Of a stretch of DNA of 64,000 nt, positions 10,763 through 64,000 are shown piece after piece. A program made the translations under genes and the position numbers. The stretch comes from Deltaproteobacteria bacterium (GTDB lineage: Bacteria > UBA10199 > GCA-002796325 > JACPFF01), in assembly GCA_016183065.1 (NCBI GenBank), contig JACPFF010000027.1:24130-88129 (forward strand). The letters are read 5' to 3'. Below the pieces are notes generated by a model. It had not been told where the DNA came from. It saw only the letters and a list, made by a program, of their open reading frames with translations, and made no database searches. Numbering within the stretch: position 1 is the stretch's first letter; every line of letters starts with the position of its first letter.

Positions 10763-10804
10763 ATTATGTATTTTATAATTTACATTATGTATTTTATGAT
10801 TTAC
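10763..10804 (+). promoter_or_regulatory. 21-bp tandem direct repeat in mntA-hepT promoter
   Basis: Two adjacent 21-bp units, 10763-10783 and 10784-10804, differ at one base. Each is AT-rich and begins ATTATGTATTTTAT. The first includes TATAAT (10774-10779), a perfect -10 hexamer. The block ends 9 bp before the ATG of the HTH-MntA gene. Direct repeats over a promoter suggest a cooperative binding site, plausibly for the HTH domain of the protein encoded next door. Confidence 0.6.
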
Positions 10805-10813
10805 AATCGCAAC

Positions 10814-11344
10814 ATGTTATATCTCGATCGAGCCAAGCTGGAAGAGGTGCTGCGACGCCACGGGCTCTCGCTTGCGGCGCTTGCACGGCAGGCGGGAATC
10901 TCTCGACAGAGTCTCTACCTGATGTTCAAAAATCAACCAGTGTTTGCCATCCCCTTTCAGCGAGTGTTGGATACGTTGCATATCGATTATCGAGCGATTA
11001 CCAAAGACATGTCTGTCGGCGACACCATGATGGCGGTGGCTCCCATACAAATCCATAAGGTCACCATGCAACTCATTGAGTTCTGTCGCCACCATCATGC
11101 CGACCTGGTCCTTTTTGGTTCGCGGACACGAGGGAAAATGACGATTCAGGCGGATTGGGATTTTGGGGTCTGGTTTCGCAGGACAATAGATGATTACCCT
11201 CTGCGAGTCCTCAAACAGCAACTCGTGGACCGTGCGTTTCCCTATCGCATTGATGTGGTGAACCTCAATCAGGCGCCGCCGTGGTTTCGAAAGTCGGTAG
11301 ACGCTCACCATGTTGTCCTGTACGGAGCATATCGATGCCACTGA
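10814..11344 (+). CDS. mntA: HTH-fused MntA-type nucleotidyltransferase antitoxin
   Basis: 176 residues from ATG 10814 (MLYLDRAKLEEVLRRHG). The N-terminal ~50 residues form a Cro/CI-like helix-turn-helix (SLAALARQAGISRQSLYLMF). The C-terminal half is a minimal nucleotidyltransferase with GSRTRG...ADWD, the GSx10DxD active-site pattern of MNT proteins. MntA enzymes silence HEPN toxins by adding AMP to the toxin tyrosine. The partner toxin overlaps by 10 nt. The HTH fusion would allow self-repression, and tandem repeats lie in the promoter. An upstream in-frame ATG at 10766 would translate the tandem repeats and is rejected. Confidence 0.85.
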   Translation: MLYLDRAKLEEVLRRHGLSLAALARQAGISRQSLYLMFKNQPVFAIPFQRVLDTLHIDYRAITKDMSVGDTMMAVAPIQIHKVTMQLIEFCRHHHADLVLFGSRTRGKMTIQADWDFGVWFRRTIDDYPLRVLKQQLVDRAFPYRIDVVNLNQAPPWFRKSVDAHHVVLYGAYRCH

Positions 11345-11760
11345 CCCACGTTGACAGCATGAAACAGCAGACCATCGCAGCGTTGCAGTGTCTGCATGCG
11401 GCGTTGGAACATCTCCAACAAGCCGCCTCAGACAAAGCGCTGCAAGATATTCTTGAAGACGCGGTTGTCAAACGTTTCGAGGTGCTCTTTGAATATGTGT
11501 GGAAATTACTGAAGGCCGCGGCAGAATATCAAGGGGTGGAAGCCCCTGGTCCCCGTCCGGCCATCCGTGAAGGCGTCCGTTTCGGATGGATTACCGATCC
11601 AGATTTTTGGGCCGTCGCACTCGATGCCCGCAATGGAAGCGTGCATGATTACTTCGGGATGTTGATGTCGGAATATCTGAAGTTGATCGTCCGTTTTGCA
11701 CAGGAAACCTCGACGTTGTTGGACAAACTCTCGCAGTCATTCGACAGAGCACGACGATAG
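11335..11760 (+). CDS. hepT: HEPN ribonuclease toxin (HepT-like)
   Basis: 141-residue all-helical HEPN protein, also known as the HI0074-like 'nucleotidyltransferase substrate-binding' family. The catalytic RX4HXY motif is present as RNGSVHDY about residue 98 of the chosen start (MPLTHVDSMKQQ). HepT toxins are RNases inactivated by AMPylation of the motif tyrosine by MntA. It overlaps the mntA stop by 10 nt, the normal arrangement for this module. An alternative start is the Met at 11359. Confidence 0.87.
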   Translation: MPLTHVDSMKQQTIAALQCLHAALEHLQQAASDKALQDILEDAVVKRFEVLFEYVWKLLKAAAEYQGVEAPGPRPAIREGVRFGWITDPDFWAVALDARNGSVHDYFGMLMSEYLKLIVRFAQETSTLLDKLSQSFDRARR

Positions 11761-11866: not shown

Positions 11867-13080
11867 ATGGTCAAACGATCCTCCATAACCCCTGTGCAGC
11901 AGTTTTTGACGGCCAGCCTGCAACCAACGGTGTTGGGGCCCGCCATGGCCGCACGCCGGCGTTGTGGACCGGATGGCGTGGTTCAGAGCATAGGAAGAGC
12001 CGTTCTTGATATGCGACAGGCCGCCGATGCCCGCCGAGGGGTCTCCCCCATGCGGGATGAACAATTCCCCCTTGGCGGCACCTGTTTTGGACGCCACCAC
12101 ACGGTCATCGGACGTCTTCGGTCGATGTATCAACGCGAACCACAACCCCGACGCATTCTTGACGTGGGCGCAGGAATTTTTTCTCTCTTCAGCATGGAGA
12201 ATTGCATTCCCGGCCTTGCCCAGATCCTGAGAAACTATGGGTATGTCGCCGAGGGATTTTCGTACGAGCCGGTCGAACTGGCGACGTTATTGCCGTCTGA
12301 CGGTCGTGTGGACGTGGTGGAGTTCGACGCACGGATTGCCACTACGGTTTCCGCATCGGCCCACCAGATGGTCGTTTCCGTCCACCAACCAGTCATGGGC
12401 GCCTGCCGACGTATCACCGCATCGCAGCTCGCAGCAGGAGACACTGACGCCGTGGCTATCTATGATCAATGGATGGACTATCTTGACAGCTTTATCAGGG
12501 ACTATCCCGAACAGCGCATTGAACTTGCCGCACAACGCGGCACTGCGACGATTCCTCTGGGCTATTGGATGGGATTACCGCTCACGCTCGCCGAGCAGAT
12601 CCATGTCATGCACGCCGATATGGTGCGTTAACTTTTCCTGAGTACATGCGTCTTACGGTACCATAAGTATTTCTAACGTTTAATGAGCACATTTGTACTC
12701 ATTAAACGTTGAAATACTATATCACTGTGCAACCGATTCGTGAGACCTATGATCTGGCGTGGCTGACCAATGTCTATGCCTATATGGCCGATCCGCTCTG
12801 GACCGCGCTCCTCGTCCGTGTCATTGCAAGTTTGCCGATTGGGGGACCTGACGGCGGTGGGCTGTTGGTGACAAATCATTTTGATCAAGACACGAGGATT
12901 GCGGAGACACCCATGGCCGGAGAGATGGGCGCCATATTGACACTCGGTGGCATGACGCTCGTTGACGAAATCCGTTCACCGCTCGACCACTCACTGCCAC
13001 TGATCATTGCCCGGCGGACATCGGCCAGCCGCTGGATCGATGCAGCATGCGCCCTCCTGCGACAGCATGGACTCACGTAA
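11867..13080 (+). pseudogene. methyltransferase-like gene interrupted by R2 element
   Basis: Two reading frames, 11867-12631 and 12709-13080, are the halves of one gene split by an R2 repeat (12622-12718). The first frame stops in the element (ATG GTG CGT TAA). The second frame resumes just after it. Removing 101 bp between the flanking ATAT repeats joins codons as ...HADITVQPIRETYDL... without a shift. The rejoined product (~370 residues) has a SAM-binding-like loop ILDVGAGIFSLFS in the first half and DLAWLTNVYAYM plus LIGG/GGLLVTNHF-type strands in the second, like a CheR-type class I methyltransferase, though many family residues are weak. Upstream ATG at 11867 has AAAAGG at good spacing. 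Confidence 0.72.
12622..12718 (+). mobile_element. R2 hairpin element, copy 1 (inserted in gene)
   Basis: About 97 bp, from GGTGCGTT to GAAATACT. The right half is one long hairpin: AGTATTTC (12666-12673) pairs with GAAATACT (12711-12718), and AACGTTTAATGAG (12675-12687) pairs with CTCATTAAACGTT (12698-12710) around a 10-nt loop. The left half contains the short palindrome TTACGGTACCATAA. ATAT flanks it on both sides (12618-12621 and 12719-12722), consistent with a target duplication. No coding capacity, so any mobility must be supplied in trans. Confidence 0.8.
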
Positions 13081-37899: not shown

Positions 37900-38206
37900 A
37901 TTGGAGGGGCTCACGTACCCTGCGGCTCCGCCTCCGGGTACTTCCTCGTCCACCCGCTTCGCGGGTGCCCGGACTCGGTCGTCGCCACACCCCCCTCCAG
38001 CGGCAAAGCCGGGTCAAGGCCCAGCTGTGCTGGGCCGCGAAGCAAAGTCGAAGACTGTGCGGAGTGTAATGGAGTCTCCCCCTCAACGCCGCGGTGCGGC
38101 TGGGGCGTGGGGCCCCGGACGTCAATCCGGGGGGTGTCGTGCGCAGGCGAAGCCTTCTCCCAGGGTGCCACGGGCGTGAGCCCGTGGTGCCCCACTAACA
38201 GTGGAA
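37900..38206 (+). repeat. R1 GC-hairpin repeat, copy B
   Basis: Starts ATTGGAGGGGCTC after the lipoprotein gene. Modules in order: GTACCCTGCGGC...GGGTAC stem, CACCCGCTTCGCGGGTG stem, CCTCCAGCGGC segment, GGCCCAGCTGTGCTGGGCC stem, then a second module (CGCCGCGGTGCGGC ... GTGCCACGGGCGTGAGCCCGTGG) also found in copies C and D. No ORF here encodes a recognisable protein. Confidence 0.8.
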
Positions 38207-41851: not shown

Positions 41852-42245
41852 ATTGGAGGGACTCACGTGCCCTGCGGCTCCGCCTCCTGGTACTTCCTCG
41901 TCCACCCGCTTCGCGGGTGCCCGGACTCTGTCGTCGCCACACCCCCCTCCACCGGCAAAGCCGGTGGAGCCTCCCCCTCACGCTCGCTGTGCTCGCTGGG
42001 GTACTTCCTCGTCCACCCGCTTCGCGGGTGCCAGGACTCGGTCGTCGCCACACCCCAATCCAGCGGCACAGTGACCGACGTGTTCCCGGTGTGCCAGGCT
42101 CAACCGGACTCAGTGTGCCCGGAAACGTTTCCCTTGAGCGCCGTGGTGCGGTTGGGCCACTGGACCACGGATGTCAGTCCTGTGGGGGCACAGGTGGTGC
42201 CTTCCCCTGGTACCACGGGCGTGAGAGCCTGTGGGGCTCCCGCTC
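41852..42245 (+). repeat. R1 GC-hairpin repeat, copy C (mosaic)
   Basis: Begins ATTGGAGGGACTC right after the transposase fragment. It contains the CACCCGCTTCGCGGGTG block twice, the second time after the CACGCTCGCTGTGCTCGCTGG module, then the second-type module (GCCGTGGTGCGG...GGTACCACGGGCGTGAG). The internal duplication shows that the repeat is built of exchangeable units. Followed at 45 bp by R2 copy 2. Confidence 0.8.
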
Positions 42246-42289
42246 TTCACGTCGTCATTCCGTCGGAAAACAGAATTCAGAGCCTTTAT

Positions 42290-42386
42290 GGTGCGTTAGC
42301 TTTTCCTGAGTATAGGCGTTTTACGGTACCATAAGTATTTCTAGTGTGTAATGAGCACATTTGTACTCATTACACATTGAAATACT
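42290..42386 (+). mobile_element. R2 hairpin element, copy 2
   Basis: 97 bp, GGTGCGTTAGC to GAAATACT. Hairpin arms AGTGTGTAATGAG and CTCATTACACATT plus AGTATTTC/GAAATACT. Relative to copy 1, two stem pairs changed on both sides (T-A to G-C; C-G to T-A). TTAT occurs immediately at both edges. Lies 104 bp before parA. Confidence 0.78.
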
Positions 42387-42400
42387 TATAGTTACCAAGT

Positions 42401-46415: not shown

Positions 46416-46582
46416 ATTGGAGGGGCTCGCGTCGCCCCCTCCAGCGGCAAAGCCGCTGGAGCCTCCCCTTCAACGCCGCGGTGCGGCTGGATCGTGGGGC
46501 CCCGGACGTCAGTCCGGGGGGTGTCGTGCTCAGGCGAAGCCTCCTCCCAGGGTGCCATGGGCGTGAGTCCGTGGGGCCCCAC
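46416..46582 (+). repeat. R1 GC-hairpin repeat, copy D (between atpH and atpA)
   Basis: Begins ATTGGAGGGGCTC and contains the CTCCAGCGGC/GCCGCTGGAG stem and the second-type module ending GGGTGCCATGGGCGTGAGTCCGTGG. Occupies almost all of the 207-bp atpH-atpA gap, so the atp transcript would carry strong hairpins here. No T tract, so not an obvious terminator. Confidence 0.82.
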
Positions 46583-46615
46583 TGGAGTAGTAAGGCGCGT
46601 GTGAAGGAGTGAGCG

Positions 46616-53461: not shown

Positions 53462-53640
53462 ATTGGAGGGGCTCACGTACCCTCCGGCTCCGCCTGCGGG
53501 TACTTCCTCGTCCACCCAGCTTCGCTGGGTCCCCGGACTCGGTCGTCGCCACTGACCCCCCAACGGGCTAAGCCCGTTGGGTCCCCCCCCTCTCGCGCGC
53601 GGTGCGCGCTGGGCCGTGGGGCCCCGCATATTTTTTGAAG
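53462..53640 (+). repeat. R1 GC-hairpin repeat, copy E
   Basis: Begins ATTGGAGGGGCTC. Stems GTACCCTCCGGC...CGGGTAC, CACCCAGCTTCGCTGGGT, CCAACGGGCTAAGCCCGTTGG and GCGCGCGGTGCGCGC. The CCACCCAGCTTCGCTGGG hairpin replaces the CCACCCGCTTCGCGGGTG of copies B/C with paired changes, so the stem is kept. R2 copy 3 follows after 75 bp. Confidence 0.8.
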
Positions 53641-53714
53641 GGTATGTCCGGTCGTTCGTGGTCCCGGACTATGGAGAAAAATATCGATTGCCCGGTGGGT
53701 AATCGGCAACATAT

Positions 53715-53810
53715 GGTGCGTTCACTTTTCCTGAGTACATGTATTCTAAGGACCAGAAGTATTTCTCACGTTTCACGAGCATGTTTGTACTCATGAAACG
53801 TTGAAATGCT
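53715..53810 (+). mobile_element. R2 hairpin element, copy 3 (at tkt ribosome site)
   Basis: 96 bp, GGTGCGTTCAC to GAAATGCT. Stem CACGTTTCACGAG / CTCATGAAACGTT; the A-T pair of copy 1 at the eighth position is a C-G pair here. Ends 3 bp before the GAGGAGGG ribosome site of tkt, so the hairpin stands at the 5' edge of that gene. Confidence 0.78.
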
Positions 53811-53827
53811 ATAGAGGAGGGTTCACG

Positions 53828-58793: not shown

Positions 58794-60485
58794 CGTGCAG
58801 CCACGGGTGCCTGGGAGCGGGACGATGTCGGGTTGTAGAAAATCGATGATGCCGTCGTTGTTCGAATCTTCTTTTTGATCGGCATCGAGGATCCCATCGC
58901 CATTGCTGTCGAGGTCGAGGCGATTCGGGAATCCGTCGTTATCCATGTCGTCGTCGCCCTCGACAATATCGGGGATGCCGTCGTTGTCATCATCCGGGTC
59001 GCAGGGATCGCCGAGTCCGTCCCCATCGGCATCGTTATGATCGGCATTGAACACCGTGGGGCAGTTGTCGTCCACATCGGCAATGCCATCGCCGTCGGTG
59101 TCGGTCGTCTCGTCTTCCGGGTCGCAGGCATCGCCAAGTCCGTCGCCGTCGAGATCGTCCTGGTCGGGATTTTCGACAAATGGACAGTTGTCCGAGCCAT
59201 TCACAAGACCATCGCCGTCGGTATCGCTGTCGCAGGCATTGCCGATGCCATCCCCATTACTATCTTCCTGGTTCGGGTTGGCCATGGCGGGGCAGTTGTC
59301 GAGGGTATCCGGAATCCCGTCACTATCGGCATCGGTCGTTCCATTGCCATTGCTGCCGGCTTCACAGGCATCGCCGACGCCGTCGCCGTCCGCATCTTTC
59401 TGGTTGCCATTGTCCACGAGCGGGCAGTTGTCAGCGCCATTCAGGACCCCGTCGCCATCGATGTCGTTGTCGCAGGCCTCGCCGACGCCGTCGCCGTCGA
59501 GATCGGCCTGATCCGGATCGCTCACATTGGGACAGAGATCGCAGGCATCGCCAAATCCGTCGTCATCGCTGTTGGATTGATCGATATTGGCCTTGTTGGG
59601 ACAATTGTCGATAAAATCGGCAACGCTGTCGCCGTCACCGTCTGTCCCAAAATCGCTGCTCTCCAGCGGTTTGATCACGGTCGCAAAGGGCGAGGTATTG
59701 CCGTCATTGTCGATCGCGGTCGCGGTGACGGGGAGCGTGGGGTTGAAAGTGGCCATATCCAAATGCGCCACAAAAATGCCATTGTTGATCTGCTGTGAGG
59801 AGAGATAATAGGTCTTCCCTTGCGGGACTGCCGCATTCGCGGCATCGGCGCCAAAGATCTCCACCATCGTGACCCCTGGCGTGACCGATCCACTCAACTC
59901 CCATGTCGACGAGTTGATCGTACTCGCCGTCAGATTTTTCGGCGCGGCCAATCCCTTGTTTCCGGTATTGTTCGGGCCGAGATAGATGGCCTTGCTCGTC
60001 ATGTTCACAAAGGTGCTCTTTGAGACCAGATTCCCGTTGCTCCCAAACGTCCCGGAGATCCAGAGTCCGATGTTCGCCGTGTCACATTGGATGGAGCGGA
60101 TTTCATTGGCGCTCCCGACCACGACCATGGCGGTTTTTCCCGGATGGGTGATCTTGAGATCCTTGACCAGATTTCCGCTCCCCTTCAATCGCAATACGGG
60201 GGCATTTGCCGAGGTGATGGCGGTCCCGCTGAGGGTGATCTTTCCACCTCCCACGAGTTCAATCCCGGTGTCGAGTTCAACGGTCTCCGGGACGGTGATA
60301 GTCTTGCCATCGAGCGCGCTGCCAAATGTGATGGGCGAACAGCCGGTCTTGGCAATGGCCGGCAGCGATCCGGCGCCGGAACCGTTCGCCAACGTGACCG
60401 GCGCACAGGGCTGCGCCTCCAACGTCGGGACGATGGCGAGCGCACCGAGGGTGAGGAGGATTGTGAGTCGGAATGCACGGATCAT
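58776..60485 (-). CDS. secreted thrombospondin type-3 repeat protein
   Basis: 569 residues. Signal peptide [24 protein letters not shown]. Residues ~50-200 look like a parallel beta-helix (repeated short strands, e.g. [21 protein letters not shown]). About residues 285-540 are a string of thrombospondin type-3 calcium repeats, each like [20 protein letters not shown] with D-x-D-x-D-G and DNCP cores. Binds many Ca2+ and is likely a surface or matrix adhesin. Start overlaps the stop of the upstream lipoprotein gene by 4 nt. Confidence 0.88.
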
Positions 60486-63366: not shown

Positions 63367-63630
63367 ATTACAGGGGCTCTCGTACCCTGCGGCTCCGCCT
63401 CCGGGTACTTCCTCGTCCACCCAGCTTCGCTGGGTTCCCGGACTCGGTCGTCGCCACACCCCCCTCCACCGGCAAAGCCGGGCCAAGGCCCAGCTCCGCT
63501 GGGCCGCGAAGCAGAGTCGAAGACTGTGCGGAGTGTGATGGAGCCTCCCCTTCACGCTCGCCGTGCTTGCTGGATAGCTTCCCACGGACGACGCGCTTGC
63601 CCGTGGGAAACTATGGAAGATCCTAGGCGG
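63367..63630 (+). repeat. R1 GC-hairpin repeat, copy F
   Basis: Starts ATTACAGGGGCTC like copy A. Includes the CACCCAGCTTCGCTGGGT hairpin (as in E), CTCCACCGGC, GGCCCAGCTCCGCTGGGCC stem (as in B), the CACGCTCGCCGTGCTTGCTGG module, and the CTTCCCACGG...CCGTGGGAAAC module (as in A). A mosaic of elements from other copies. Confidence 0.8.
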
Positions 63631-63634
63631 ATAT

Positions 63635-63723
63635 GGTGCATTCACTTTTCCTGAGTACATGCGTCTTACAGTACCATAAGTATTTCTCACGTGTAATGAG
63701 CACATGTGTACTCATTAAATGTT
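63635..63723 (+). mobile_element. R2 hairpin element, copy 4 (truncated, cuts portal-like gene)
   Basis: ~89 bp from GGTGCATTCAC to the end of the second stem arm; the terminal GAAATACT is missing. Stem CACGTGTAATGAG / CTCATTAAATGTT with one G-A mismatch. Only 4 bp after R1 copy F. The final TTA of the stem reads as the stop of the minus-strand gene beyond. Confidence 0.72.
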
Positions 63724-64000
63724 TAAGATCGAATCGCCCCAGTAATCGACACGGGCCCGTTTGCTACGGGGCATCTTGACTCCTTCAAAACGGATCAGAC
63801 GGCTGGCGTTCAGCCGTGCAATGCCTTCCGCCTCTTGGCCCTGGATCGTGTAAAACTCTGGCAGGCCAAAGCCGGGGCGGCTCACATCCTTGATCAGGCT
63901 TTGCGAATCCGGCTGGAGTTGGAAGCGATCCAGCATGGCAATGTACTCAAGACTTCTGAATTTCGCGAGGTCGAGTTCCGCTTCGGGATCGGCATCCTTC
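63715..64000 (-). pseudogene. phage portal-like (DUF1073) gene fragment, truncated by R2
   Basis: Minus-strand frame entering from the right edge: KFRSLEYIAMLDRFQLQPDS ... SRLIRFEGVKMPRS ... DYWGDSILNI then stop. The RLIRFEG ... YWGDSIL strand pattern matches DUF1073-type phage portal or portal-like proteins, in which WGDSIL is normally followed by many more residues. Here the stop falls inside R2 copy 4, so the 3' part is lost. Likely a prophage remnant; the N-terminus is outside the window. Confidence 0.65.

Follow-up and report, generated by a model that had tools for sequence, protein, structure and literature searches.

The window analysed here, a whole stretch of 64,000 nucleotides, harbours at 11867-13080 two open reading frames (ORFs) in different phases with a copy of a short repeated element, R2, at their junction. 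The stop codon of ORF 11867-12631 is a TAA that lies within R2, and ORF 12709-13080 starts within the right end of R2. Just upstream of this split gene, at 10766-11760, an ORF combining a Cro-type HTH with a Polbeta nucleotidyltransferase is followed by an NTase substrate-binding/HepT-like ORF, which together look like an MNT/HEPN toxin-antitoxin-type pair. The features of the locus, and the further R2 copies of the window, are as follows (G007 is a related genome described below):

11867..12620, + strand: 5' portion of the interrupted gene; its homologue is the first part of the intact gene in G007
12619..12620, no strand: left TA, the target dinucleotide; TA stands on the left in 25/25 copies
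12619..12645, + strand: left terminal inverted repeat TATGGTGCGTTAACTTTTCCTGAGTAC, an exact match to the consensus TATRGTNNNTYAACTTTNNNTNNGTAC
12619..12665, + strand: hairpin 1, in which TATGGT (12619-12624) pairs with ACCATA (12660-12665); from the DNA fold
12621..12719, + strand: R2 element proper, 99 bp, within the gene; about 25 full copies in the genome consist of exactly this unit between TA borders
12664..12690, + strand: internal third copy of the end, TAAGTATTTCTAACGTTTAATGAGCAC, in left-end direction and pairing with the right end; from sequence comparison, conserved across genomes
12666..12718, + strand: hairpin 2, with a 21-bp stem AGTATTTC(T)AACGTTTAATGAG / CTCATTAAACGTTGAAATACT; from fold and covariation
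12695..12721, - strand: right terminal inverted repeat TATAGTATTTCAACGTTTAATGAGTAC, one mismatch to TATRGTNNNTYAACTTTNNNTNNGTAC
12720..12721, no strand: right TA, the duplicated copy; TA stands on the right in 22/25 copies, and removal of 101 bp restores the frame
12722..13080, + strand: 3' portion of the interrupted gene; its homologue is the remainder of the intact gene in G007
42287..42390, + strand: further R2 copy
53712..53813, + strand: further R2 copy
63632..63734, + strand: further R2 copy, right end decayed

Excision of R2 restores the reading frame

The initial annotation had proposed that R2 splits a gene whose frame is restored by excision, and removal of 101 bp indeed produced a single open frame of 370 codons, reading HADITVQP at the joint. 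The ATAT noticed at both borders was likewise found, at 12618 and 12719, 101 bp apart and with no other ATAT in 12591-12740. Its interpretation as the duplicated target had to be abandoned, given that the border common to all copies is TA; the ATAT of this site is a coincidence of flank and element (A-TA on one side, TA-T on the other). As all R2 copies start after a TA and nearly all end at one, the element measures 99 bp, and thus the insertion of a sequence of about 97 bp was right as to the insertion and wrong as to the size, which is 99 bp plus one extra TA. A duplication of TA is formally indistinguishable from a 101-bp element inserted without duplication. Since R2 brings both a stop codon and a frameshift into the gene, the host gene has very probably been inactivated. 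The label 'methyltransferase-like' given to this gene is not supported, as it has only an ILDVGAG motif behind it and no Pfam match was obtained with the joined protein, with pieces of it or with the homologue left intact in G007; the predicted structure of this homologue, folded without an alignment, had a pLDDT of 35 and was unusable.

When the joined protein was searched among 60 relatives, one strong but distant homologue was found, and the comparison is one of proteins. It is encoded by an uninterrupted 396-codon ORF, with no internal stop, in G007, which belongs to the same class as the R2 genome but to another family. Residues 14-369 aligned with 33-34% identity (E 1e-55), and the alignment had no gap at the R2 insertion point (HVMHADITVQPIRETYDLAWL / RFSTADLATFPLPDTYDLAWL), so that a single protein spans the junction, as had been anticipated for a once intact gene. 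Searched against the named genomes, the same query found no relative. G007 carries at least 9 R2-type copies elsewhere in its genome and none within this gene, and therefore this site has simply not been hit there. An empty site lacking R2 would read GCCGATATCACTG. The comparison of both sequences indicates that R2 (12621-12719) jumped into a TA site within the gene, breaking a gene that is whole in a relative.

R2 is dispersed at TA dinucleotides

In its own genome (1.97 Mb, 89% complete), R2 is present in about 25 near-full copies, on both strands and with 75-100% identity to the copy at 12621-12719. The closest pair is 99% identical (one base apart), the median pairwise identity is 88%, and the flanks beyond the TA are variable. 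These dispersed copies at TA, together with the gene whole in G007, uphold the proposal that R2 is or was mobile; with the closest copies just one base apart, the movement seen in the sequences, which is past movement only, appears to be fairly recent. R2 encodes no protein, is 99 bp long and occurs in many copies, in keeping with the definition of a bacterial MITE as non-coding, multi-copy and shorter than 500 bp, and its TA target is a trait of the IS630/Tc1-mariner type.

According to a simple coding score devised for this analysis, most R2 copies are intergenic. Near the 3' end of one gene (locus L005), an R2 copy possibly cuts off the last 40 codons. This is the only possible additional case in the genome, most long frames over other excised junctions looking like antisense frames or upstream extensions.

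Flanking bases were compared in 80 copies from this genome and its relatives. Position -1 on the left was A/T in 66/80 copies and position +1 on the right in 48/80, and a purine was found at right +3 in 65/80, against a pyrimidine at left -3 in 42/80. The target preference is therefore not mirror-symmetric, and a symmetric mariner-like enzyme alone would not predict this asymmetry.

Other repeats were also observed in the window. Dispersed G+C-rich families (CCCCCTCCACCGGCAAAGCCGGTGGAGCC...) occupy 1281-1346, 37900-38196, 41852-42075, 46435-46583, 53462-53621 and 63367-63582, and several of these repeats precede an R2 copy by a few hundred bases (41943-42390, 53462-53813 and 63367-63734). Six 117-bp direct repeats in tandem, with 69-132 bp spacing, at 58987-59643 perhaps belong to a repeat protein.

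Inverted ends and two conserved hairpins

The ends of R2 are 27-bp degenerate inverted repeats with the consensus TATRGTNNNTYAACTTTNNNTNNGTAC. Hairpin 2 arises by pairing of the internal end with the right end; it has a 10-nt loop (12688-12697) and a bulged T at 12674 that is common to most copies. The left end folds into hairpin 1, which is shorter. Folded as single-stranded DNA, R2 gave a z of -7.25. In an alignment of 23 copies, drawn from 12 genomes, standard pairs made up 95.9% of the paired cells and 10 pairs had changed on both sides, counts that take in mutually related copies and hence represent fewer independent events. The double-sided changes affected 9 of the 21 pairs of hairpin 2 in these 23 copies, and hairpin 1, 99.3% of whose cells were paired, showed one compensatory change only (GC to AU). 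Pairs such as 66-97 and 70-93 had three or four pair types each. The covariation score was 0.228; shuffles gave 0.068 and slid structures no more than 0.064. Both hairpins have thus been kept through sequence change, hairpin 2 by strong covariation.

Distribution of R2 and of elements with related ends

Of about 46 genomes of the class, which we take to be the GTDB group UBA10199, 14 matched a covariance model of R2; about 110 genomes from outside the class gave no match. Those class members that are named are metagenome bins, listed as Deltaproteobacteria bacterium. By the same model, carrier genomes had from 1 to more than 20 copies, and G001, the one other genome from the family of the R2 genome, had none. 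The end pattern TATRGTNNNTYAACTTTNNNTNNGTAC, with two mismatches allowed, occurred in 19 of 46 class genomes; the reversed control gave few hits. A stricter end pattern occurred in 12 of 385 genomes, all within the class. In a search of viral contigs with an 18-base core, all five matches were due to chance and the element was absent. No Rfam family matched the window.

Variants of this organization were found in several class members. In G044 (C176:11430-11737, locus L172), three R2-like copies are arranged head to tail with a period of 102 bp and neighbours share a single TA, as would result from insertion of one copy into the TA that borders the next. G003 harbours a solo hairpin 1 of 47 bp. 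Elements of 136 bp (G009) and 130 bp (G017) have the same ends and different insides. The wider set of elements is therefore defined by the ends and not by the insides, which suggests a common end-reading enzyme. TA-flanked elements of 130-150 bp with the same TATAGTNNNTTAACTTT ends were seen at L122, L140 and L177-L179 (G009), L119, L137, L173 and L175 (G017), L129 (G024) and L132 (G012); their insides are the palindrome GTCATCCCCGCGAAGGCGGGGATCCAG...CTGGATCCCCGCCTTCGCGGGGATGAC or, in G012, are of a GTCATTCTGA...GAAGAATCTC type.

Discussion

Comparison of sequences revealed dispersed copies, TA borders, inverted ends, a split gene, TA-sharing tandems and two conserved hairpins, and we consider it highly probable that R2 is a MITE mobilised in trans by a transposase that targets TA. 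The enzyme itself is inferred, because none of the DDE_3 and DDE_Tnp_1 loci bore these ends. Such a transposase would bind the 27-bp inverted ends TATRGTNNNTYAACTTTNNNTNNGTAC, cut out the 99-bp element by a presumed cut-and-paste chemistry and join it to a TA, which would thereby be duplicated. Hairpin 2 is probably conserved because it presents the end once more, facing inwards, or because its foldback protects transcripts or aids single-strand recognition. No DDE_3 protein was found in the R2 genome (89% complete), and when the DDE_3 and DDE_Tnp_1 loci of the relatives, whose genomes are incomplete, were scanned for R2 ends and for any TA-flanked inverted repeat, R2 ends were absent. An IS630-type transposase bearing the ends of its MITE, as in RUP, was thus seen neither in this genome nor at the DDE_3 loci of its relatives. 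Partnerless ends, considered as candidate autonomous elements, turned out to be truncated copies, other MITE types or chance matches.

The flank asymmetry and the conserved fold of hairpin 2, with its bulged T, do not fit easily with a plain mariner-like enzyme. We regard it as unlikely, though worth stating, that a family of TA-targeting transposases so far not linked to these ends acts on the Correia repeats of Neisseria and also, throughout this uncultured class, on R2 and the G009 and G017 types, and that it needs the covarying foldback of hairpin 2, recognition of the element then depending on the folded strand in addition to the ends. The main rival to a TA-targeting transposase is an HUH (Y1) enzyme, which would make R2 a hairpin element of the IS200/IS605 or REP/REPIN kind, inserted at a site-specific left flank with no duplication. 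The two hairpins, the T bulged in most copies, the strong covariation and the asymmetric flank preference would all suit such an enzyme; however, the inverted ends are conserved and reach the very borders, TA stands on both sides, and the stems begin right at the border, with no space for the guide sequences of the IS200/IS605 family, so that we hold this origin to be quite improbable. It is very unlikely that R2 is a repeated, conserved RNA or regulatory structure and not a transposon: covarying hairpins over many families of the class and mostly intergenic positions could be so explained, but R2 splits a gene that is whole elsewhere, occurs in both orientations at TA with unrelated flanks, is missing from its closest relative G001 and patchy in the class, and the window lacks any Rfam match. 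Some copies may later have been put to use as RNA or regulatory structures.

Two further explanations seem to us barely tenable. The motif YYYAAC...GTTRRR frames the inner stem of hairpin 2, with TCTAAC ... GTTGAA beside this stem in nearly all copies, and a three-copy tandem exists, which together recall an attC-like site of the integron type; yet the seventh position of the box departs from the attC consensus, the copies otherwise stand singly at scattered sites, R2 also has a second hairpin and inverted ends, no cassettes separate the tandem copies and the loci read contain no cassette array. That the hairpin was inserted here by misassembly is equally hard to credit: although in some G003 copies the element coincides with assembly gaps (runs of N), dozens of differently flanked copies come from genomes that several projects assembled independently, and the TA border is consistent.

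A MITE moved by a TA-targeting transposase would have several counterparts among known elements. To our knowledge, the ends closest to those of R2 are the Correia (CREE/NEMIS) ends, which measure 26-29 bp, begin with TATAGT and have TTAA, TTT and GTACG placed as in R2. The insides of the two are probably unrelated, R2 having two side-by-side hairpins and an internal third end, presumably unlike the Correia core between its ends. Compared with the Correia end TATAGTGGATTAAATTTAAACCGGTACGG and its variants (PMC5039591), R2 ends were identical at 17-22 of 29 positions, gapless, in register and for the best variant, with a chance of about 1e-5 to 1e-3 per shuffled comparison; the CREE end of 26-29 bp, TATAGTGGATTAAC/A..., is not the same sequence. 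Because Correia was singled out for this comparison and the ends are A+T-rich, we read this likeness as similarity of ends and not as membership. Correia elements are also about 100-155 bp long, non-coding, TA-bordered and present in tens to hundreds of copies, and the partner enzyme of CREE is unknown as well (PMC2229807). CREE are described as unique to Neisseria (PMC5039591), whereas the host of R2 belongs to an uncultured class of 'Deltaproteobacteria'.

In general, bacterial MITEs are short elements that lack coding capacity, and most of them have inverted ends, TA termini and stable hairpins (PMC2229807). An autonomous partner with matching ends is usual, but most of those described are without a known one, only RUP having a candidate, IS630-Spn1 (PMC2229807). 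RUP of Streptococcus pneumoniae shares with R2 its length of about 107 bp, TA target, multiple copies and lack of coding capacity (PMC2229807), but its ends are common to a resident IS630, while no DDE_3 was found in the R2 genome and none with R2 ends in its relatives. The Caulobacter CIR has two side-by-side hairpin arms, about 110 bp and conserved structures like R2, but possesses GANTC sites, has no terminal inverted repeats listed and was not found inside genes (PMC2229807). REP/REPIN elements are short dispersed hairpins too. REPs, as far as we know, have neither TA borders nor long inverted ends.

What is new is the R2 family itself, its clade, its extra internal end and its covarying hairpin; the kind of element is already known. 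With R2, a bacterial MITE gains a clear pair of interrupted and uninterrupted genes, in a class represented by metagenome bins. Stem pairs that change in step across many families of this class raise the question of why a supposedly passive passenger keeps its fold. Moreover, the end motif in common with Correia, for which no mobilising enzyme has been reported (PMC2229807), offers new genomes in which the enzyme may be sought.
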